64,000 nt of DNA from Aristaeella lactis (GTDB lineage: Bacteria; Bacillota; Clostridia; Christensenellales; Aristaeellaceae): the NCBI RefSeq assembly GCF_018118585.1, contig NZ_CP069421.1:3286001-3350000 (forward strand), given 5' to 3'. The notes beneath the pieces were generated by a model that was given only the letters and a program-made list of their open reading frames with translations, had not been told where the DNA came from and made no database searches. This document shows, piece by piece, positions 21,042-29,418 of the stretch. Position 1 is the stretch's first letter. Each line of letters starts with the position of its first letter. The translations under genes and the position numbers were made by a program.

Positions 21042-22085
21042 TCAGATGTAGATTTCCATGTAGCGGCGGTAAGTGGTGAAACCGGCGGCTTCATAGAAAG
21101 CCAGGGCGTTTCGGTTGAACTCCCACATGTTCAGTTCCACGCGGCTGTAGTTCTTTTCTGCGGCATAATCCCGGATGAAGCGGATCATTTCGCTGGCTAT
21201 ACCCTGACGGTGATGGCTCTCATCCACGGCGAACTCATCGATATCCAGGAAATCCCGAACGTACATGAACGGGTTTTCCGGACGGAAGATGTGGTTCAGC
21301 ACGGCAAAGCCGACGATTTCGCCGTTCAGTTCCGCTACGACGATCTTCCGCTGGGGATCTTCCCAGATGGTGCGGATGAAGTTTTTCAGCTCATCACAGA
21401 AACCGGGCTTAAAGGTATCCGGCCTGCCGGCAACGTGCAGGTCGTTGACCTGGCGGCGCAGTACATTCACAGCGTTCAGTTCGTTTTCCTTCGCGAAACG
21501 GACGATGACCGGGACGGGCGGTTTCCGGACAGCCGGATTCCGGTCGCTCCGCAGCAAAGACCAGCAGCAGACGTCGCATATTCCCTGGTTGTTGATACCC
21601 GCGCCGCGCCGGACGCCTTCTTTCCGCATACCGGCCTTTTCCATGACGCGACCGGATTTGGGGTTGTTCACATCATGTCCTGCCATGATCCGGCTGACGC
21701 CTACCGTATCAAAGAGGAAATCCATGACAGCCCGAAGGGCTTCCGGCATGATGCCACGGCCCCAGTAAGCCCTGCCCAGGCAGTAACCGAGTTCAGCCTC
21801 TTCAATGGCTTCCTCAATCCGTACAACGGAGATGTTGCCGATCACCTTTCCGGTTTCTTTCCATTCGATGGCCCAGTTGAAGAAACTGCCATCCCCGTAC
21901 CGGGAGATCCAGTCCGTCAGCACCATGCGGGTGATATCCTCGCTGGTATGAGCCGGCCAGGTCAGGAAGCGGGTCACATCCGGGTCGGAGGCCCAGGCGG
22001 CAAACATATCTTCAGCGTCTTTGAGGCGAAACTGACGGAGGATGAGCCGGTGGGTTTCGATCGTCTGCGTACCGGTTTTATTCAT
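21042..22085 (-). CDS. Tandem GNAT acetyltransferase (two fused domains)
   Basis: A 347-residue protein with two acetyl-CoA-dependent GNAT domains. Residues 1-180 resemble RimJ/RimL N-acetyltransferases (QFRLKDAEDMFAAWASDPDV, then GYCLGRAYWGRGIMPEAL and NNPKSGRVMEKAGM). Residues 195-347 are a second, generic GNAT (AVDESHHRQGIASEMIRF, then NALAFYEAAGF). ATG 22085 follows AAAGGA at 9 bases; a TTG six bases upstream is less likely. It begins two bases after the upstream methyltransferase ends and is co-transcribed with it. Substrates unknown. Confidence 0.88.
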   Translation of the reverse strand: MNKTGTQTIETHRLILRQFRLKDAEDMFAAWASDPDVTRFLTWPAHTSEDITRMVLTDWISRYGDGSFFNWAIEWKETGKVIGNISVVRIEEAIEEAELGYCLGRAYWGRGIMPEALRAVMDFLFDTVGVSRIMAGHDVNNPKSGRVMEKAGMRKEGVRRGAGINNQGICDVCCWSLLRSDRNPAVRKPPVPVIVRFAKENELNAVNVLRRQVNDLHVAGRPDTFKPGFCDELKNFIRTIWEDPQRKIVVAELNGEIVGFAVLNHIFRPENPFMYVRDFLDIDEFAVDESHHRQGIASEMIRFIRDYAAEKNYSRVELNMWEFNRNALAFYEAAGFTTYRRYMEIYI

Positions 22086-22087
22086 GA

Positions 22088-22915
22088 TCAATCGTCCTTT
22101 CGTTTTAAGATCCAGATGAGGTTGCTGTTGAATTTCGCGGCGGAGGAGGGATCCTTCAGGTTTTCCTTATCGCCGTTGTAACCGCGGTAAATATCCAGGA
22201 CTTCGAAACCGCACAGCTTCGCGAGCAGGAACATTTCCCAGCGGTTTGTCTGCCGCATCAGCAGGGGACGAACCCTTTCACCGATTACTTCGCCTTTGTC
22301 ATTATATTCCTCGAACTTCCAGTTTCCGTACATTTGCTGTGTATAAGGGTTATAGCTGATCGCATTATAGATCTTTTCCCGGTTTCCGTCAGCGTTGACA
22401 TACTCCAGGCGGAAAGAATAATCCTCCGGGGATGTCTGCATCTGGGCTGCCTGCATGGGCGGCCAGGGATCGAATGTGTTGAGTGTCAGGATGCCGCCGG
22501 GAAACAGCTGGTCCCGCAGGTTCCTGAGCGCGGCGATCTGCAGCTCCTGGTTCGGCAGGTGCATGAAACCGCTGCGGGCAATGATCGCGAGGGAATACTT
22601 CCTGCCGGAGGAAAACTTCGTCATATCGGCCGGAATGATATTCAGCGGGAGACCGAGTTTTTCCGCTTTGGCTTTGGCAACTTTACACATCTCTTCGGAA
22701 AGATCCGTGCCGTCAACCTCAATGCCGCGTTCCGCCAGGTACAGGAGCACAGCGCCTGTGCCGCAGGCCACATCCACCACACCGCCGGATCCATACCGGC
22801 GTGCCAGGTCCAGGTAAAACTCCCGGAAATGCTCATGGTGATCATTATGCGCGTACATCACCTCGAGATACCGGTCATAGTTTTCAGCAACGTCCTTATA
22901 ATCGTGCAGGTCCAT
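22088..22915 (-). CDS. SAM-dependent methyltransferase (class I)
   Basis: A 275-residue class I methyltransferase. SAM motif I is VVDVACGTGAVLLYLAERG near residue 47, and the acidic loop is DGTDLSEEM. The C-terminal half (YSFRLEYVNADG, WKFEEYNDKGEVIGER) is a beta-rich substrate cap seen in small-molecule methyltransferases. The start MDLHDYKDVAENYDRY follows AAGGAG, favoured over an in-frame start 57 bases upstream. It is the first gene of a two-gene operon with the tandem acetyltransferase. Substrate unknown. Confidence 0.87.
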   Translation of the reverse strand: MDLHDYKDVAENYDRYLEVMYAHNDHHEHFREFYLDLARRYGSGGVVDVACGTGAVLLYLAERGIEVDGTDLSEEMCKVAKAKAEKLGLPLNIIPADMTKFSSGRKYSLAIIARSGFMHLPNQELQIAALRNLRDQLFPGGILTLNTFDPWPPMQAAQMQTSPEDYSFRLEYVNADGNREKIYNAISYNPYTQQMYGNWKFEEYNDKGEVIGERVRPLLMRQTNRWEMFLLAKLCGFEVLDIYRGYNGDKENLKDPSSAAKFNSNLIWILKRKDD

Positions 22916-22962: not shown

Positions 22963-22995
22963 AAAAAATCACTTATCCGGCGAGGGATAAGTGAT
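22963..22995 (-). terminator. Terminator of the 34-residue peptide unit
   Basis: ATCACTTATCC (22968-22978), 6-base loop, GGATAAGTGAT (22985-22995), with a minus-strand T-run over 22963-22967. The core CTTATCC/GGATAAG also forms the terminator of the 31-residue peptide unit at 27052-27084. Confidence 0.88.
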
Positions 22996-23021
22996 CAGTT
23001 GATGCGGCCGCATTCCGGAAT

Positions 23022-23126
23022 CTACTTTTCCCTGCTCTTCGGACGATTGTACGCGAAATAATAACCGTAAGCAGTATAAGCTTCGGTCATCACGGTAGTC
23101 ATAGTGTAAACCGCGTACTTCGCCAT
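23022..23126 (-). CDS. Small protein, 34 residues, in a self-contained transcription unit
   Basis: The ATG at 23126 follows AAAGGAGCTCTTCTC and opens MAKYAVYTMTTVMTEAYTAY; the tail is YNRPKSREK. It is aromatic-rich with seven tyrosines and an amphipathic first two thirds and charged end. It has no signal peptide. Its promoter (23159-23187), leader and terminator stem match those of the 31-residue peptide at 26930. Placed with that peptide, V-x-T-x-x-Y-x-x-x-G-[FY] keeps the same spacing at the same offset. It is divergent from the ABC exporter. The function is unknown; an expressed small protein is more likely than chance because every expression signal is strong. Confidence 0.72.
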   Translation of the reverse strand: MAKYAVYTMTTVMTEAYTAYGYYFAYNRPKSREK

Positions 23127-23158
23127 GAGAAGAGCTCCTTTCCGGAAATATTGGGGTG

Positions 23159-23187
23159 AGTATACACCGGGGAAAGGCCGCCGTCAA
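23159..23187 (-). promoter_or_regulatory. Promoter of the 34-residue peptide unit
   Basis: Minus-strand TTGACG (23182-23187), a 17-base spacer and TATACT (23159-23164). It is 32 bases from the peptide ATG. Confidence 0.85.
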
Positions 23188-23231
23188 GCCGTTCCCGGAA
23201 AAAAAGATGCTGAACCTGCGCTGAAAACGGA

Positions 23232-23260
23232 TTGACGGCACGGCGGATTGTCTTTATGAT
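23232..23260 (+). promoter_or_regulatory. Promoter of the ABC exporter operon
   Basis: TTGACG (23232-23237), a 17-base spacer and TATGAT (23255-23260). Divergent from the small-peptide promoter 45 bases away. Confidence 0.82.
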
Positions 23261-23323
23261 GGTCGGGAAAGAACAGTAAAGCAGGAGCAGAAAACTCCGC
23301 GTGAAGGAAAACCGGGGGAACAG

Positions 23324-25090
23324 ATGAAGTTTCTTTGGAAGTATCTGAAAAAGTATCGCTGGATGATCCTGTTCGGTATGGGACTGAAGCTGGCCGGCAC
23401 GCTGACAGAGCTTCTGATTCCTTATGTGATGGAGCATCTGCTGGATCATGTGGTGCCGCAAAAGGAAACGGCGCCTGTTTTGCTATGGGGCGGGGCTATG
23501 ATCCTGCTGGCCTGTGTGGTGCGGTTCCTGAATGTAACAGCGAACCGGAAGGCGGTGTGGATCGCCAAGGAGAGCATTTTTACCATCCGGCGGGACCTGT
23601 TTCATTCAGCACTGAATCTTTCCGGAGGGCAGACGGATGAAATCGGCCTGCCGTCCCTGATCTCCCGGATGACATCTGATACCTACAATGTGCAGAACTT
23701 CATCCGGGCTGCGCAGACCCTGGGAATCCGGGCGCCGATCATGCTGATCGGCGGTATCGCGATCACGCTGACCATGGATACGGGGCTGGCGCTGATCCTG
23801 TGCATCATGGCACCGATCATGATCGGCCTGGTGGTGTTCATCTCCTTCAAGGGAATCCCGCTGTATGACATGGTGCAGCGGGGCATGGACGATATTGTAC
23901 GCATTATGCGGGAAAACATCACCGGAATCCGGGTGGTGAAGGCCCTGTCCAAGGAGCCATATGAGATGCGGCGTTTCAGCGGGGCGAATGATACCACCTC
24001 CCGCCGGGATATCAAGGCAAGCATCATCATGGCGCTGCCGGGCCCTGTGGTTACATTGTTCCTGAATATCGGACTGACACTGATCGTTTTTATCGGCGCA
24101 AGACGGGTGAACACGGGTGTGACAGAACCCGGCGTGATCCTGGCCTTTCTGACCTATTTCAATATGATCCTGATGGGCGTAATGGGCCTGAACCGTGTAT
24201 TCCTTATGCTTTCAAAGGCAAACGCGTCCGCTGCCCGTATCGCGGAGGCAACGGAACAGCAGGAAGACCTGGCCGTTCTGCCGGCGGAAGAGGGTGCCCG
24301 GACAGACCGAAATGGTTACATTGTTTTTAATCACGTAACTTTCAGCTACGCCGGAGACGGGAAAAACGCTGCGCAGAACACAGCGGCCTTTGCGGGTTCT
24401 TCCAGGCAGCAGTGCCTGAAGGATGTGGACTTCACGATCCGGAAAGGCGGCTCCCTGGGTATTATCGGCGCCACGGGAAGCGGAAAAACCACGATCATCA
24501 ATCTGCTGATGCGCTTTTACGATCCGGACGAGGGACATGTGTTCATTGACGGACAGGATGTGCGGACGATGGACCGGGACGAGCTGCGCCGCCGGTTCGG
24601 TACAGTATTTCAGAATGATACGATCTTTGCCTCCAGTATCCGGGAAAACGTGGTGTTCGGCCGGAAGGTCGATGAGGAACGGCTTCAGGAAGCCCTGGAA
24701 GACGCCATGGCGGCGGACTTCGTAAACCAGTATACGGACGGGGCGGACCATATGGCAGCCATCCACGGCGGCAACTTCTCCGGAGGGCAGAAGCAGCGGC
24801 TGCTGATCGCCCGGGCCCTGGCAGCGAAACCGGATATCCTGGTCCTGGATGACTCCTCTTCGGCGCTGGACTACCGGACAGACGCGGAACTGCGCAAGGC
24901 GATCAGCAGCAAGTATGCTGATACGACGCTGATTGTGATCGCCCAGCGGATCTCCTCCATTATGAACCTGGATGAGATCATTGTTCTGGATGAAGGGGAA
25001 ATGATCGGCAAGGGTACGCATGAGGAACTGATGCGCAGCTGCCCGGTTTACCGGGAGATCCAGCAAACCCAGATGGGGGAGGTGGAATAA
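23324..25090 (+). CDS. Heterodimeric ABC exporter, subunit 1 (degenerate ATP site)
   Basis: A 588-residue half-transporter: six membrane helices (1-310) and an ATPase domain (about 335-575). Walker A GATGSGKT is at 382-389 and the signature is FSGGQ. Walker B reads VLDDSSSALD: Asp510 replaces the catalytic glutamate, the hallmark of the non-hydrolysing site in heterodimers such as TM287/288 and BmrC/BmrD. GGGGGA precedes the ATG. It overlaps subunit 2 by one base (TAATG). An insert of about 25 residues (GDGKNAAQNTAAFAGSSRQQ) precedes the ATPase core strand. The exported substrate is unknown; drugs, lipids or peptides are typical. Confidence 0.93.
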   Translation: MKFLWKYLKKYRWMILFGMGLKLAGTLTELLIPYVMEHLLDHVVPQKETAPVLLWGGAMILLACVVRFLNVTANRKAVWIAKESIFTIRRDLFHSALNLSGGQTDEIGLPSLISRMTSDTYNVQNFIRAAQTLGIRAPIMLIGGIAITLTMDTGLALILCIMAPIMIGLVVFISFKGIPLYDMVQRGMDDIVRIMRENITGIRVVKALSKEPYEMRRFSGANDTTSRRDIKASIIMALPGPVVTLFLNIGLTLIVFIGARRVNTGVTEPGVILAFLTYFNMILMGVMGLNRVFLMLSKANASAARIAEATEQQEDLAVLPAEEGARTDRNGYIVFNHVTFSYAGDGKNAAQNTAAFAGSSRQQCLKDVDFTIRKGGSLGIIGATGSGKTTIINLLMRFYDPDEGHVFIDGQDVRTMDRDELRRRFGTVFQNDTIFASSIRENVVFGRKVDEERLQEALEDAMAADFVNQYTDGADHMAAIHGGNFSGGQKQRLLIARALAAKPDILVLDDSSSALDYRTDAELRKAISSKYADTTLIVIAQRISSIMNLDEIIVLDEGEMIGKGTHEELMRSCPVYREIQQTQMGEVE

Positions 25091-26859
25091 TGGCCAAACG
25101 TGATTCCATTATGACCAAACCCAAAGACTCAAAGGGTGCTTTCATGCGCCTGCTGTCCTACCTGGGCGCGTTCAAGGCGCTGATCCTGCTGGTGGCTGTA
25201 CTGTGCCTGATCAGCAATGTGCTGAGCCTGTGGGGACCGACGCTGGCCGGTTCCGCGATCAATGAAGCGGCGGCGGGACAGGGTAAGGTGAACTTCGAAC
25301 GGGTAACCTACTTTGCCGTGCGGATGCTGGCCGTGTATGCGTGTTCTTCCCTGATCACGATCCTGATCCACATGATCATGGTCAATGTGTCCAAGCGCGT
25401 GGGCAGGAAGATGCGGCAGGATGTGTTTGACAAGCTGATGCGGCTGCCGGTGGGTTTCTTTGACCGGAACCAGGCAGGGGATATTATCAGCCGGGTCTCC
25501 TATGACGTGGATGTGATCAGCACCTGTATGGCTACGGACGTGGTGGCAATCCTGACCAGTATTGTGACGGTGATCGGCGCGCTGATCATGATGGTCCGGA
25601 TTTCTCCTGTGCTGAGCCTTGTAACGCTGGTGACGGTACCCGCTTCCATTCTGTTTACAGCCCATATGCGAAAAAGAACGCAGCCCCGGTTTGTGAAACG
25701 GTCCAGGTCCTACGGTGCGATGAACGGGTTTGTGGAGGAACAGCTGTCCGGGCAGAAGACCATCCAGGCTTATGCCTATGAGGACCAGATTGACGAAAAA
25801 TACGAGGATATCAACCATCAGGCCGCAGAGGCCTATTATGACGCGGACTCCCTGGCGGCAACCATCGGACCGACGATCGGCTTTATCAACAACATCGGCC
25901 TGAGCCTGATCAGCCTGCTGGGATCGGTGCTGTATATGAACGGGACTATCGGTCTGGGGAATATTTCCTCCTTTGTGCTGTATTCCCGGAAATTCTCCGG
26001 ACCGATCAACGAGGTCGCGAATATCATCAATGAGCTGTTTTCCGCCCTGGCGGCGGCGGAACGGGTATTTGGCCTGCTGGACCAGGCGGAGGAACTGCGG
26101 GACGCGGAAGGGGCACGGACGCTGTCTGACGCGGAAGGCAATGTGGCACTGAACCATGTTTTCTTCGGTTATGATCCGGACCGGACGATCATTCATGACC
26201 TTTCCATGCGGGCGGATGCCGGAAAACTGACCGCCATTGTCGGGCCCACCGGCGCGGGCAAAACCACGATCATCAACCTGCTGATGCGCTTTTACGACGT
26301 GGACAGCGGAAGCGTGACGGTGGACGGACAGGATGTAAGGGAACTGACCCGGAGAAGCCTGCGGTCCGCCTACGCCATGGTGTTGCAGGACACCTGGGTG
26401 TTCCGGGGAACCATCTTTGACAACATCGCCTACGGCAAGGAGAACGCCACAATGGATGAAGTGGTGGCAGCAGCGAAAGCAGCCCATATCCATCCGTTTA
26501 TCATGCGGCTGCCGGAAGGCTACCAGACCGTCATCAGCGAGGACGGCGGCAATATCTCCAAGGGGCAGAAGCAGCTGCTGACCATCGCCCGGGCAATGCT
26601 GTACACCTCCAGTATGCTGATCCTGGATGAGGCGACCTCCAACGTGGACACTTCCACGGAGCGGGAGATCCAGCGGGCTATGCGGGAACTGATGAAAGGG
26701 CGGACATGCTTTGTGATCGCCCACCGGCTTTCCACGATCCGGAACGCGGATAATATCCTGGTGGTGAACCAGGGAGATGTTGTGGAACAGGGGACGCATG
26801 AGGAACTGATGCAGGGGCGTGGGTTCTATTACCGCCTGTACCGGGCGCAGTTTGAATAA
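25090..26859 (+). CDS. Heterodimeric ABC exporter, subunit 2 (catalytic)
   Basis: A 589-residue partner of the preceding subunit with the same layout. Walker A is GPTGAGKTT and Walker B LILDEATSNVD, with the normal catalytic Glu514. Its signature is altered, ISKGQKQ instead of SGGQ, so it completes the degenerate site formed with subunit 1's Walker motifs, while subunit 1's intact signature completes the active site. This reciprocal pattern is what the heterodimeric exporter family shows. A consensus promoter for the 31-residue peptide begins 9 bases after the stop codon, with no terminator between. Confidence 0.94.
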   Translation: MAKRDSIMTKPKDSKGAFMRLLSYLGAFKALILLVAVLCLISNVLSLWGPTLAGSAINEAAAGQGKVNFERVTYFAVRMLAVYACSSLITILIHMIMVNVSKRVGRKMRQDVFDKLMRLPVGFFDRNQAGDIISRVSYDVDVISTCMATDVVAILTSIVTVIGALIMMVRISPVLSLVTLVTVPASILFTAHMRKRTQPRFVKRSRSYGAMNGFVEEQLSGQKTIQAYAYEDQIDEKYEDINHQAAEAYYDADSLAATIGPTIGFINNIGLSLISLLGSVLYMNGTIGLGNISSFVLYSRKFSGPINEVANIINELFSALAAAERVFGLLDQAEELRDAEGARTLSDAEGNVALNHVFFGYDPDRTIIHDLSMRADAGKLTAIVGPTGAGKTTIINLLMRFYDVDSGSVTVDGQDVRELTRRSLRSAYAMVLQDTWVFRGTIFDNIAYGKENATMDEVVAAAKAAHIHPFIMRLPEGYQTVISEDGGNISKGQKQLLTIARAMLYTSSMLILDEATSNVDTSTEREIQRAMRELMKGRTCFVIAHRLSTIRNADNILVVNQGDVVEQGTHEELMQGRGFYYRLYRAQFE

Positions 26860-26867
26860 AAAACCGC

Positions 26868-26896
26868 TTGACACCGCGCCGGATGCAAGGTATAGT
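26868..26896 (+). promoter_or_regulatory. Promoter of the 31-residue peptide unit
   Basis: TTGACA (26868-26873), a 17-base spacer and TATAGT (26891-26896), almost perfect. It is 33 bases from the peptide ATG, matching the 34-residue unit. Confidence 0.88.
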
Positions 26897-26929
26897 AAAC
26901 GCAATTAAGCAAGAAAGGGGGCTCTTCGC

Positions 26930-27025
26930 ATGAGGTTTGAGAATGTGCTTTCAGCGATCGTTAACACTGTAAAGTATATCCGCAGTGGCTTTGTGTCCGA
27001 TCATACGAAGGGCCGTCCGGAATAA
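26930..27025 (+). CDS. Small protein, 31 residues, in a self-contained transcription unit
   Basis: ATG 26930 follows AAAGGGGGCTCTTCGC. The peptide opens MRFENVLSAIVNTVKYIRSG, an amphipathic helix-like stretch, and ends in a charged tail, SDHTKGRPE. It has no signal peptide or double-glycine motif. It sits just downstream of the ABC exporter, between a near-perfect promoter and a strong terminator, and shares leader and spaced residues with the 34-residue peptide at 23022. Roles to consider: export substrate or signal, membrane-active or regulatory small protein, or an antisense-free leader product. None is shown. Confidence 0.72.
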   Translation: MRFENVLSAIVNTVKYIRSGFVSDHTKGRPE

Positions 27026-27051
27026 CTTCCGGCATCCGTTCGATATGACCG

Positions 27052-27084
27052 GCCGCTTATCCATGACGGATAAGCGGCTTTTTT
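27052..27084 (+). terminator. Terminator of the 31-residue peptide unit
   Basis: GCCGCTTATCC (27052-27062), a 5-base loop, GGATAAGCGGC (27068-27078) and TTTTTT. It shares the CTTATCC/GGATAAG core with the terminator at 22963-22995. Confidence 0.92.
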
Positions 27085-27118
27085 GCTGCGCAAAAACTGA
27101 ATACAGGAGGTGATCGGG

Positions 27119-28009
27119 ATGACTGTTTCAGCGTACGGAAATATCCCGGAAAACAAGCAAAATGAGAATGAACAGGCCGTAAAGGAACCTGTACAGGAGG
27201 AAAAGATGGGCATACTTGGATGGATGAACCCCGAAGACTATTCATTTGACTGCATGCTGCGGATGGAACGTTTCCAGATCCGGTACATACTGGGCAATCC
27301 GGATGAAGCCGGAAAGAAGGCGCTGGCCATGGCACTGAAGGCGAATCCGAAGGTGGCAGGACTTTTCATGAGCAAGTGTCCTGAAATGGCGGAGACGGTG
27401 AAAACACTTACCGCACAGATACCGGCGGAGCTGACGCCGGAGGAGATCCGGACAGCGGAGGTACAGGTGATCGGCGATTATGAGGATTTCGTTATTTATA
27501 CCACGCCGAACCTTATGCCTGAAAAATGCGACTTCATTTACGGGTGGCACAAGGAACGATTGTTTGAGATGTGCCCCCTGGAAGGAAAGACAGTGCTGGA
27601 CGTTGGCAGCGGAACAGGCCGGCTGGCCTTCGCGGCAGCGGAGAAAGCCGCCTTTGTTGCAGCCAGCGAACCTGTGGATTCCCTGCGGGAGTATATGCGG
27701 GATGAGATCGCACGGAAGGGCATTACCAACATGAGGGTGTGCGACGGCATGTGTGACAGCCTGCCGTTCCCGGACAACAGCTTTGACGTCGTGATGAGCG
27801 GACACGTGGTGGGCGACCGCTTCCGGGAGGAAGTGAACGAGCTGACCCGGATCACCAAACCCGGCGGATGGCTGCTGGACGTGCCGGGAGACCAGCAAAG
27901 GGAAACAGGCCGGAATGAGGCACTGATCGCTGACGGCTGGGAAGAAATGGCCTATGAAGGTACCTTTGGCAGGACAACCTACCGGTACCGTAAACAGGTA
28001 AACAAGTAA
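27119..28009 (+). CDS. SAM-dependent methyltransferase (class I) with N-terminal extension
   Basis: A 296-residue protein. The C-terminal two thirds is a class I methyltransferase: VLDVGSGTGRLAFAA (motif I, near residue 161), SEPVDSLREY and FPDNSFDVVMSGHVV, then TRITKPGGWLL. The first 140 residues are helical and hydrophilic with no known domain. ATG 27119 follows AGGAGG at 8 bases; a GTG nine bases upstream would overlap the ribosome site. It lies after the small-peptide terminator and before the rsgA group; no separate promoter was identified. Substrate unknown. Confidence 0.85.
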   Translation: MTVSAYGNIPENKQNENEQAVKEPVQEEKMGILGWMNPEDYSFDCMLRMERFQIRYILGNPDEAGKKALAMALKANPKVAGLFMSKCPEMAETVKTLTAQIPAELTPEEIRTAEVQVIGDYEDFVIYTTPNLMPEKCDFIYGWHKERLFEMCPLEGKTVLDVGSGTGRLAFAAAEKAAFVAASEPVDSLREYMRDEIARKGITNMRVCDGMCDSLPFPDNSFDVVMSGHVVGDRFREEVNELTRITKPGGWLLDVPGDQQRETGRNEALIADGWEEMAYEGTFGRTTYRYRKQVNK

Positions 28010-28031: not shown

Positions 28032-28319
28032 ATGGTTTTGCATATCAATAATCAATCAAACCTGTTCAGAATGAGCAGAAACAACCGGGTATCCGGAAGG
28101 ATGAACCGGTACACTGGCAAGGAAACGAAGATAACAAACGACACGTGCGGAGAAGAGAGGTATGTGAATACCCGAAGGGATCCGCGCCGCAAAAGGAAGG
28201 ATCAGTTATGGATAAGACTATACAGATATATGACACGCCGGCCGGCGGCATGTATGCCGGCTGGCAGCCCGGTATGGCGGACAATGCGATCCGCCGGAAC
28301 AATGAACCCTGTTATGTGA
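28032..28319 (+). CDS. Doubtful small basic protein
   Basis: An open frame of 95 codons with a good ribosome site (AAAGGAG) 22 bases after the methyltransferase. The product is very basic (MVLHINNQSNLFRMSRNNRV and so on) and matches nothing I know. It overlaps the better-supported frame at 28208 by over 100 bases, so either it is the real first gene with an overlap, or only its 5' part is a leader. No frameshift is proven. Confidence 0.3.
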   Translation: MVLHINNQSNLFRMSRNNRVSGRMNRYTGKETKITNDTCGEERYVNTRRDPRRKRKDQLWIRLYRYMTRRPAACMPAGSPVWRTMRSAGTMNPVM

Positions 28320-28453
28320 CGTTCGGCGGCGAAACATTCTACATCGGGAACGAAGGAAAGCCCATGAAGAAGAAGCGCCGGAACATTTTCTGCCGGATAT
28401 TCCGGCATATGACCCATAAGGAGGAAACCGCTTGGAAGAATGCTATCGCGTAA
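28208..28453 (+). CDS. Unrecognised small protein, 81 residues
   Basis: ATG 28208 follows AAAGGAAGGA. The product opens MDKTIQIYDTPAGGMYAGW, continues with a beta-like stretch CYVTFGGETFYIGN, and ends in a very basic patch KKKRRNIFCRIFRH. No known domain. It overlaps rsgA by 22 bases, and the rsgA ribosome site lies inside it, so the two are translationally linked. A nucleic-acid- or ribosome-binding role would fit the neighbour and the basic tail but is only a guess. Confidence 0.5.
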   Translation: MDKTIQIYDTPAGGMYAGWQPGMADNAIRRNNEPCYVTFGGETFYIGNEGKPMKKKRRNIFCRIFRHMTHKEETAWKNAIA

Positions 28454-29418
28454 CACAGGTCCACAGGGACCGGTACATGGTGAAAAACGGAACGGAAGAA
28501 CTGTACTGCGTACTGACAGGAAGCCTGCGTTACCGGGAGGAATACCCGGTGGTGGGCGACTATGTGGAGATTACAGTCAACCCTTACGGTGACAGCCTGA
28601 TCCGGTCCATTCTGCCCCGGCGGACGGCTTTTTACCGTCCGGACCGGGGCGGCCACGCGGACGGATTTGCCAAGAACCTGCAGGTTCAGCCGCTGGTGGC
28701 GAACATTGATTATGTATTTATCATTACCTCCCTGAATCACGATTTCAGCCTGAACCGGATCGCACGGTATGCCTCCATGGCCGCGGCCGGAGGCGCCGTG
28801 CCGGTGGCTGTGCTGACCAAGGCAGACCAGTGCCCGGATGTGGAAGAGATGGAAAAGAAGACGGCTGAACTGAGCAGCCAGCTGCGGGCGGCGGCAGTCA
28901 GTGCCTATACCGGATTCGGGCTGGAACGTCTGCAGGAATATTTCACACCCGGAACCACCATTGCACTGCTGGGGTCTTCCGGCGCGGGCAAATCCACCCT
29001 GATCAATACACTGGCAGGGCGGGAGATCATGCGTACCGGCGGGATCCGGGAGGACGACTCCAAGGGACGGCACACAACCACCCACCGGGAAATGATTGAG
29101 ATCAACGGCGTATTCTTTATCGATACGCCCGGGCTGCGGGAACTGGGTATGATCGCCGCGGAAGAGGGGATCAGCGGAACATTTTCCGATATCGCCGACC
29201 TGATCAGCCAGTGCGCCTTTTCCGACTGCACCCACGGCAACGAGCCGGGCTGCGCGGTCCGCAGGGCACTGGAGGACGGTTCCCTGACGTCTGAAAGATG
29301 GAAAATGTATCTCCGGCTGGAGCGGGAGAACAGATGGAACAAAATCACCAAAAACGAAATGATGATGAACATGGCCATGAACCGCCGCAAAATGAAAGAG
29401 CAGCGGAAGGGCCGGTGA
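28432..29418 (+). CDS. rsgA: Ribosome small subunit-dependent GTPase A
   Basis: RsgA (328 residues) is a circularly permuted GTPase that helps 30S subunit maturation. An OB-fold occupies residues 1-80. The permuted GTPase has VLTKADQC (G4) before the P-loop LLGSSGAGKST and DTPGLREL (G3). The C-terminal zinc knuckle is seen in CAFSDCTHGNEPGC. The start is TTG 28432, 8 bases after GGAGG, giving MEECYRVTQV. The closing tail is rich in methionine, arginine and lysine. The preceding small gene overlaps it. Confidence 0.93.
   Translation: MEECYRVTQVHRDRYMVKNGTEELYCVLTGSLRYREEYPVVGDYVEITVNPYGDSLIRSILPRRTAFYRPDRGGHADGFAKNLQVQPLVANIDYVFIITSLNHDFSLNRIARYASMAAAGGAVPVAVLTKADQCPDVEEMEKKTAELSSQLRAAAVSAYTGFGLERLQEYFTPGTTIALLGSSGAGKSTLINTLAGREIMRTGGIREDDSKGRHTTTHREMIEINGVFFIDTPGLRELGMIAAEEGISGTFSDIADLISQCAFSDCTHGNEPGCAVRRALEDGSLTSERWKMYLRLERENRWNKITKNEMMMNMAMNRRKMKEQRKGR

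Follow-up and report, generated by a model that had tools for sequence, protein, structure and literature searches.

In the 64,000-nucleotide (nt) stretch of the Aristaeella lactis genome analysed here (the window), two short transcription units, each encoding a small peptide, flank an ABC exporter. Our analysis of these units and their relatives makes it likely that each is a ribosome-mediated transcription attenuator before an enzyme operon, switched ON when translation of its upstream open reading frame (uORF) stalls. Such leaders would probably sense slowed protein synthesis and then permit the making of methyltransferases and acetyltransferases that resemble drug-modifying enzymes. Computed here are the anatomy of the units, their conserved frame, their place before genes and, for most of the family in the genus, two competing RNA pairings.

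Two leader units and their relatives

The left leader lies on the minus strand. It consists of a promoter (TTGACG-17-TATACT, 23159..23187, found by pattern scan), region 1 (GCTCTTCTCATG, the spacer plus the uORF start codon, 23124..23135), a uORF of 34 codons with known relatives (MAKYAVYTMTTVMTEAYTAYGYYFAYNRPKSREK, 23022..23126), region 2 at the uORF end (GAAGAGC...GGGAAAAGTAGATTC, 23018..23040), which could pair with either region 1 or the terminator 5' arm, and an intrinsic terminator with its T-run, made up of regions 3 and 4 (22963..22996; scan match 22996-22967). The right leader, on the plus strand, has the same order of parts: a promoter (TTGACA-17-TATAGT, 26868..26896, also from the pattern scan), region 1 (GCTCTTCGCATG, 26921..26932), a uORF of 31 codons, again with known relatives (MRFENVLSAIVNTVKYIRSGFVSDHTKGRPE, 26930..27025), region 2 (ATCATACGAAGGGCCG, 27000..27015), of which 27002-27014 is a near-exact reverse complement of the leader, and regions 3 and 4 forming the terminator with its T-run (27051..27083; scan match 27051-27079). 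Promoter and terminator thus bracket a structured RNA of ~190 nt. The promoters, the 34- and 31-residue frames and the terminators are present as the initial annotation had described them (scan and frame check), and the leader pattern that it gave as shared is real, except that the right unit reads AAAGGGGGCTCTTCGCATG, one G beyond that pattern.

The exact string GCTCTTCNCATG occurs three times in the 3.45-Mb genome, twice in the window units, and a reversed control pattern does not occur; the third copy starts a 358-residue frame and looks unrelated. When two mismatches were allowed, the string was not special in the window (7 seen, 4.0 expected). The scan as a whole listed 7 promoter-like sites in the window vs 3.6 in shuffles, and 5 terminator-like sites vs 3.8. 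The strongest evidence that the likeness of the left and right units is no accident comes from related units in other genomes.

The left T-run ends 47 nt before the start of MTase1, a class I S-adenosylmethionine (SAM) methyltransferase (22088..22915, minus strand; Pfam Methyltransf_25, 5.6e-17), and the right T-run ends 26 nt before that of MTase2, another class I SAM methyltransferase (27110..28009, plus strand; Methyltransf_25, 2.9e-14). Both genes are co-directional with their units, and in neither case did the scan list a promoter-like site between the terminator and the downstream gene. The two units are therefore read as the leaders of two operons that flank the exporter.

Six-frame searches of 61 genomes with both peptides turned up relatives, almost exclusively within the genus. 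The left and right types are far apart in some genomes (at 3.28 Mb and 0.03 Mb, respectively, in G035). A covariance model, R1, was then built on 26 units, both window units being in the training set. It identified six full-length leaders in the A. lactis genome (E 4e-40 to 7e-6), and the four outside the window stand before a GNAT gene (C1:1766505), a nitroreductase gene (C1:1942621), a phosphodiesterase/PglZ-like gene (C1:2570342) and, at a distance of 358 nt, the gene for a 106-residue protein without a Pfam match (C1:2414490). At E up to 0.01, R1 matched 26 of 45 same-genus genomes; outside the genus there were marginal matches in 2 of 75 genomes, one chance-like (L203) and the other terminator-only. 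No match was obtained at E 5e-4 in the 292 genomes of the order outside the genus (297 searched, five of the same genus). In the class, 4 of 390 other genomes gave matches, leader-like in G593 and G676 (three loci) and chance-like in G382 and G719. Extra matches in six genomes were leader-like at L174, before a GNAT gene, and L176, before a kinase-like gene; those at L177-L180 were not. In total, 91 R1 loci were analysed. Eight matches fetched later spanned model positions 1-183 (intact, L196, L200 and L201; shortened, L197 and L198; chance-like, L199, L202 and L203), and L108 was omitted from one comparison as it is the same place as L073.

In 68 of 90 units, a frame of at least 100 residues preceded by a Shine-Dalgarno (SD) sequence starts at most 60 nt after the T-run, the median distance being 29 nt; 87 of 90 have a promoter-like match in front of them, by a permissive pattern used without a shuffle control. 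Genus-wide, the downstream genes include several kinds of GNAT, further methyltransferases, GNAT-nitroreductase fusions, HAD, 2'-5' RNA ligase-like, nucleoside phosphorylase and alpha/beta hydrolase genes. RsgA and an APH-like kinase are found behind MTase2 remnants, and an S66 peptidase behind a shortened leader. These labels are predicted family names; 27 downstream proteins were scanned, three of which had no Pfam match.

In the window, the second gene of the left operon encodes a tandem GNAT acetyltransferase (21042..22085, minus strand), relatives of which stand directly behind a leader in other genomes (L083, L091-L093, L099). The right operon continues on the plus strand with a 95-residue open frame without a Pfam match (28032..28319) and an RsgA-type GTPase (28432..29418; Pfam RsgA_GTPase, 1.3e-43). 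Some relatives (L050, L054, L061, L068, L071) retain the leader ahead of an MTase2 that looks decayed or truncated, with RsgA-like or other genes coming next.

Three further groups were noted. A subfamily (L042, L104, L120, L124, L125, L129, L130) lies 140-370 nt before a conserved protein of ~106 residues (MNRWEYIGPVW...) that has neither a Pfam nor an NCBIfam match, and its leaders combine a strong 1:2 pairing (region 1 with region 2) with a weak 2:3 pairing. A kinase-like protein (MKLVFIFGSGAVGKMTVGQEL...) stands behind L080, L094, L176 and L200, in the genus and in Lachnospiraceae YSD2013; the leader peptides look Met-rich, and the protein of L080 gave no Pfam match. Before another methyltransferase, the leader peptide MKYGYIALALLLANTLKLVRAILL... 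(L110, L112, L123) is unusually rich in Leu and Ala.

The open frame and the competing pairings

R1 is blind to codons. Even so, the first ATG opens a frame of 26-40 codons in 82 of the 91 loci vs 14.4 expected from shuffles; the 82 include L044 and L134, later assigned an upstream GTG start, and the shortened unit L109. Seven more loci open from a later ATG or a GTG (L113, L118, L119; L114, L126-L128), so that after inspection the frame is kept in 89 of 91, L105 being without a stop and L074 shortened. The 82 were selected by the openness of frame 0; of the other two frames, +1 is open in 2 of them and +2 in 21. The ratio of nonsynonymous to synonymous substitution rates (dN/dS) was 0.33-0.87 in eight groupings of at least three members (two of which overlap); a ninth grouping, of three, had 1.28, and groupings of only two members carry little information. 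At 60% identity there are 36 clusters of leader peptides; among the 36 representatives, H, M, V, Y, S and T are the most enriched residues and none dominates. By the frame counts and the dN/dS values, the frame is preserved and the peptide sequence changes under weak constraint. The GAAGAG motif near the uORF end falls in frame 2, 0 or 1 depending on the member, and this occurrence in all three reading frames indicates that the element is kept as RNA. The choice between peptide and RNA posed by the initial annotation thus falls away, as both the open frame and an RNA element are conserved.

The leader GCUCUUC..AUG is complementary to the uORF end. The RNAalifold consensus of the 26 units contains the helix between the leader and the uORF end and the terminator, and nothing else, with two-sided changes at 9 of its 22 pairs (3/10 and 6/12 in the two helices); leader and uORF end read, for example, GCUCUUC/GAAGAGC in L004, GUUCUUC/GAAGAAC in L019 and GUUUUUC/GAAAGAC in L016. 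The uORF end could also pair with the terminator 5' arm plus loop, as in L079 (UUCAGGGAAGAGUAGUUGGUA with CAACCAGCCGCUUAUCUCUGAC, -22.7 kcal/mol). Significance was taken as p<0.05 against dinucleotide shuffles of region 2 and was evaluated in 86 units, five of the 91 being omitted: L062, at a contig start, and L074, L105, L109 and L117, which are shortened, cut or altered in frame. The 1:2 pairing was significant in 54 units and the 2:3 pairing in 53; by cluster, 1:2 was significant in 22 of the 36, 2:3 in 24, both in 13 and either in 33. The uORF end is the terminator arm's best partner in the whole leader in 33 of 36 clusters, where its share of the length predicts one third. Among 125 other terminators, from the window and the loci, 12 (9.6%) passed the 2:3-type test and 39 (31%) the best-partner test. 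Co-variation was seen as well: for 33 distinct motif-anchored pairs, 326 of 396 cells pair vs 316.5 on permutation (P 0.006), and only this permutation comparison counts, since motif anchoring itself favours pairing. In the window, 2:3 is significant in the left unit (-20.0 kcal/mol, p 0.027) and 1:2 in the right unit (-23.2 kcal/mol, p 0.010).

From these features we infer that the uORF is translated, in what sequence the states follow, what triggers the switch and what the enzymes do, as follows. The promoter would yield a leader RNA with a uORF of ~32 codons, in which region 2, the uORF end, would have two alternative partners: region 1, which is the uORF initiation site, and region 3, which consists of the 5' arm and the loop of the terminator and is similar to region 1. 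Three states would then be possible: in a leader without a ribosome, 1:2 would form, region 3 would stay free, and the terminator (3:4) would form (OFF); a ribosome reaching the stop codon would cover region 2, and the terminator would form again (OFF); and a ribosome held in the uORF body, or the queue behind it, would occupy region 1 and leave region 2 free for 2:3 pairing, upon which the terminator would fail and transcription would continue into the operon (ON). A ribosome stalled in mid-uORF would not itself cover region 1, and a queued or initiating ribosome is assumed to do so. Most likely, the trigger is slowed translation under a compound that inhibits the ribosome or tRNA charging and that the enzymes of the operon would counter.

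MTase1 leaders and the weighing of alternatives

Relatives of MTase1 with 74-92% identity were found at 31 loci (L138-L168) among 84,980 species genomes, including Treponema bryantii B25 and Lachnospiraceae bacterium YSD2013. Such identity across records labelled Clostridia, Lachnospiraceae and Treponema (labels as deposited, many records being metagenome-assembled genomes) suggests recent horizontal transfer; a search of a plasmid collection gave no tblastn match to MTase1 at 1e-30. In 16 of the 31, an R1 match lies just upstream (weakest E 1.7e-4) together with a terminator-like hairpin; in 13, such a hairpin is missing from the nearest 420 nt, and in two it lies more than 300 nt off. By the script rule, 11 of these 16 leaders have an SD-preceded ATG frame. 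The Treponema strand AGAAAAGAAUAAG faces CUUAUCUUUUC where its window equivalent GGGAAAAGUAG faces CACUUAUCCC, which looks like a compensatory change; 2:3 shuffles gave p 0.056-0.126 in four Treponema loci. The leader has diverged far more than the MTase1 protein. In the 5' arm of the terminator, CACTTATC or CCACTTATC recurs before different genes and in different phyla (L141, L143, L151, L159, L174, L176; 22963-22996 in the window), a conservation beyond the need of base pairing.

Several points weigh against the proposed attenuation. No near gene was found by the above rule in 22 of 90 units. Neither window unit passes both pairing tests: 1:2 in the left unit (-13.4 kcal/mol, p 0.34) is no better than shuffles, and 2:3 in the right unit (-18.9 kcal/mol, p 0.22) is not significant, so the case for each rests partly on the family. 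The 2:3 pairing is unconvincing in several subgroups (L042, L104, L120, L124 and L129; L060, L061, L063, L064 and L068; L083 and L091), and its control rate of 9.6% exceeds the nominal 5%. For leaders outside the genus and the model (16 listed, 15 scored, the motif of L147 not being found), 2:3 reached p<0.05 in none of 15, the lowest p being 0.056 (L143, L151), and 1:2 in three (L141, L159, L191). The ATG frames of five Treponema-type leaders have no SD match, making translation there less sure. Finally, most groups have a dN/dS below 1, which might also reflect a role of the peptide as such.

The same attenuator could instead respond to a shortage of charged tRNA, e.g., threonyl-tRNA at the MTase1 leaders, which we regard as unlikely. 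Threonine makes up 23.0% of 20 MTase1 leader peptides (631 residues; four of the peptides are same-genus) vs 7.2% of 81 others, and T-T or T-x-T occurs in all 20. The visible part of the L196 peptide is Thr-rich too, as judged by eye, while the window MTase1 peptide has 15% Thr and two Lachnospiraceae-type peptides are low (6% and 8%). In outline, these leaders resemble that of the E. coli thr operon, which is Thr-rich. However, the annotated downstream genes include no amino-acid biosynthesis gene and no tRNA synthetase gene, no single residue dominates the 36 cluster representatives, and the Thr-rich peptides occur only before MTase1, a methyltransferase gene.

The initial annotation had regarded the peptides as paralogous small proteins, perhaps linked to the exporter as substrate, signal or modulator. 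That they form one family with conserved open frames is borne out, and recurrent motifs such as A-N-x4-V-R, the dN/dS values below 1 and the retention of the frame in nearly all members would suit stand-alone small proteins that have terminators of their own and act either with the exporter or in some other way. We find this improbable, as the peptides do not appear to be free-standing: the terminators lie only 26-47 nt before co-directional operons, the common 3' motif falls in all three frames, the peptides split into many clusters, and the exporter is not generally adjacent. A strong exporter match lies beside 8 of 30 units with at least 1 kb of upstream sequence, in a sample weighted towards relatives of the window units (L115, with 250 nt of upstream sequence, is also behind an exporter-like end), and many other enzyme genes are found downstream. 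The link to the exporter was accordingly rejected as a general rule, since the two do not constantly co-occur.

A translation-independent attenuator, i.e., a riboswitch or a protein-binding leader with an open frame by chance, would share the leader position, the terminator and the long-range closing helix. This is very improbable given that frame retention far exceeds expectation, that the alignment has no conserved core between the helix arms and that the genes served are diverse. In keeping with the initial annotation, which knew of no named family, the window gave no Rfam match at a family's gathering score; with E values up to 5 allowed, six loci gave trpB (4.6) and isrK (3.9) alone, both at chance level. 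Known Rfam cis-regulators (T-box, riboswitches, leaders) were rejected as candidates on the same gathering-score result. Independent small RNAs with an incidental open frame, which a promoter and terminator around a structured RNA might suggest, are scarcely credible in view of the retained frame and the fixed place before genes.

Meaning and relation to known leaders

If ribosome-mediated attenuation holds, one leader design serves several operons, mostly small-molecule-modifying or ribosome-serving, in little-studied gut bacteria. Were translation inhibitors the trigger, the leaders would mark candidate resistance genes that similarity of sequence by itself would leave unnamed (two GNATs tested scored far below the cut-offs of named resistance models), and the leader peptides would show the intended ribosome stall sites. 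More tentatively, the fuller genomes, with six to eight homologous leaders before different drug- or stress-modifying operons, might possess a genus-wide stress regulon without a protein regulator, each peptide being tuned to the threat that its enzyme targets; we hold this to be possible rather than probable. If so, a single inhibitor encountered in the gut would be what the Thr-rich MTase1 leader senses in rumen Clostridia, Lachnospiraceae and Treponema, and the leader would give a clue to the drug handled by the MTase1 methyltransferase.

To our knowledge, attenuators of this kind have mostly been described singly, per locus or gene, and the best-ranked matches in the open-access literature contain no description of the leader family. 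The kind of switch is known; what is new is that one homologous leader family stands before several enzyme operons per genome, with an MTase1 branch in two phyla.

The bmrB leader of the Bacillus subtilis BmrC/BmrD exporter provides a precedent: according to the sections consulted of the report, induction by lincomycin, erythromycin or chloramphenicol requires translation of the uORF, and the drug-induced read-through depends on it (PMC4191407). As described there, bmrB is a single locus with 53-54 codons and structures inside the frame and drives an exporter, whereas the present family has several homologous leaders per genome before enzymes, and the nearby exporter is not the driven gene. 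For topAI of E. coli, the toiL uORF is a sensor of ribosome-targeting antibiotics from several classes, though it acts, in the portions available, on translation and Rho termination instead of an intrinsic terminator and at a single locus (PMC12121999). Chloramphenicol is stated to stall ribosomes after Ala, Ser or Thr codons (cited in PMC12121999). A Thr-rich sensor would suit such stalling, and inhibitors of threonyl-tRNA synthetase likewise. The uORFC-6-1 motif before hflX and the cysS and ilvB leaders are likewise uORF leaders, that of ilvB having a terminator and an antiterminator, and hflX is ribosome-related, like RsgA of the right operon; in the excerpts of these reports, uORF motifs from comparative searches belong to one kind of gene each, vs many for the window family (PMC8632094, PMC11109978). 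Amino-acid leader peptides, as far as the partial texts describe them, have the same order of uORF, alternative helices and terminator (trp, PMC4191407; his, PMC2965389), and the MTase1 leaders carry a Thr-rich stretch as such peptides would. Unlike amino-acid leaders, however, the window family has downstream genes outside amino-acid metabolism and no family-wide residue.

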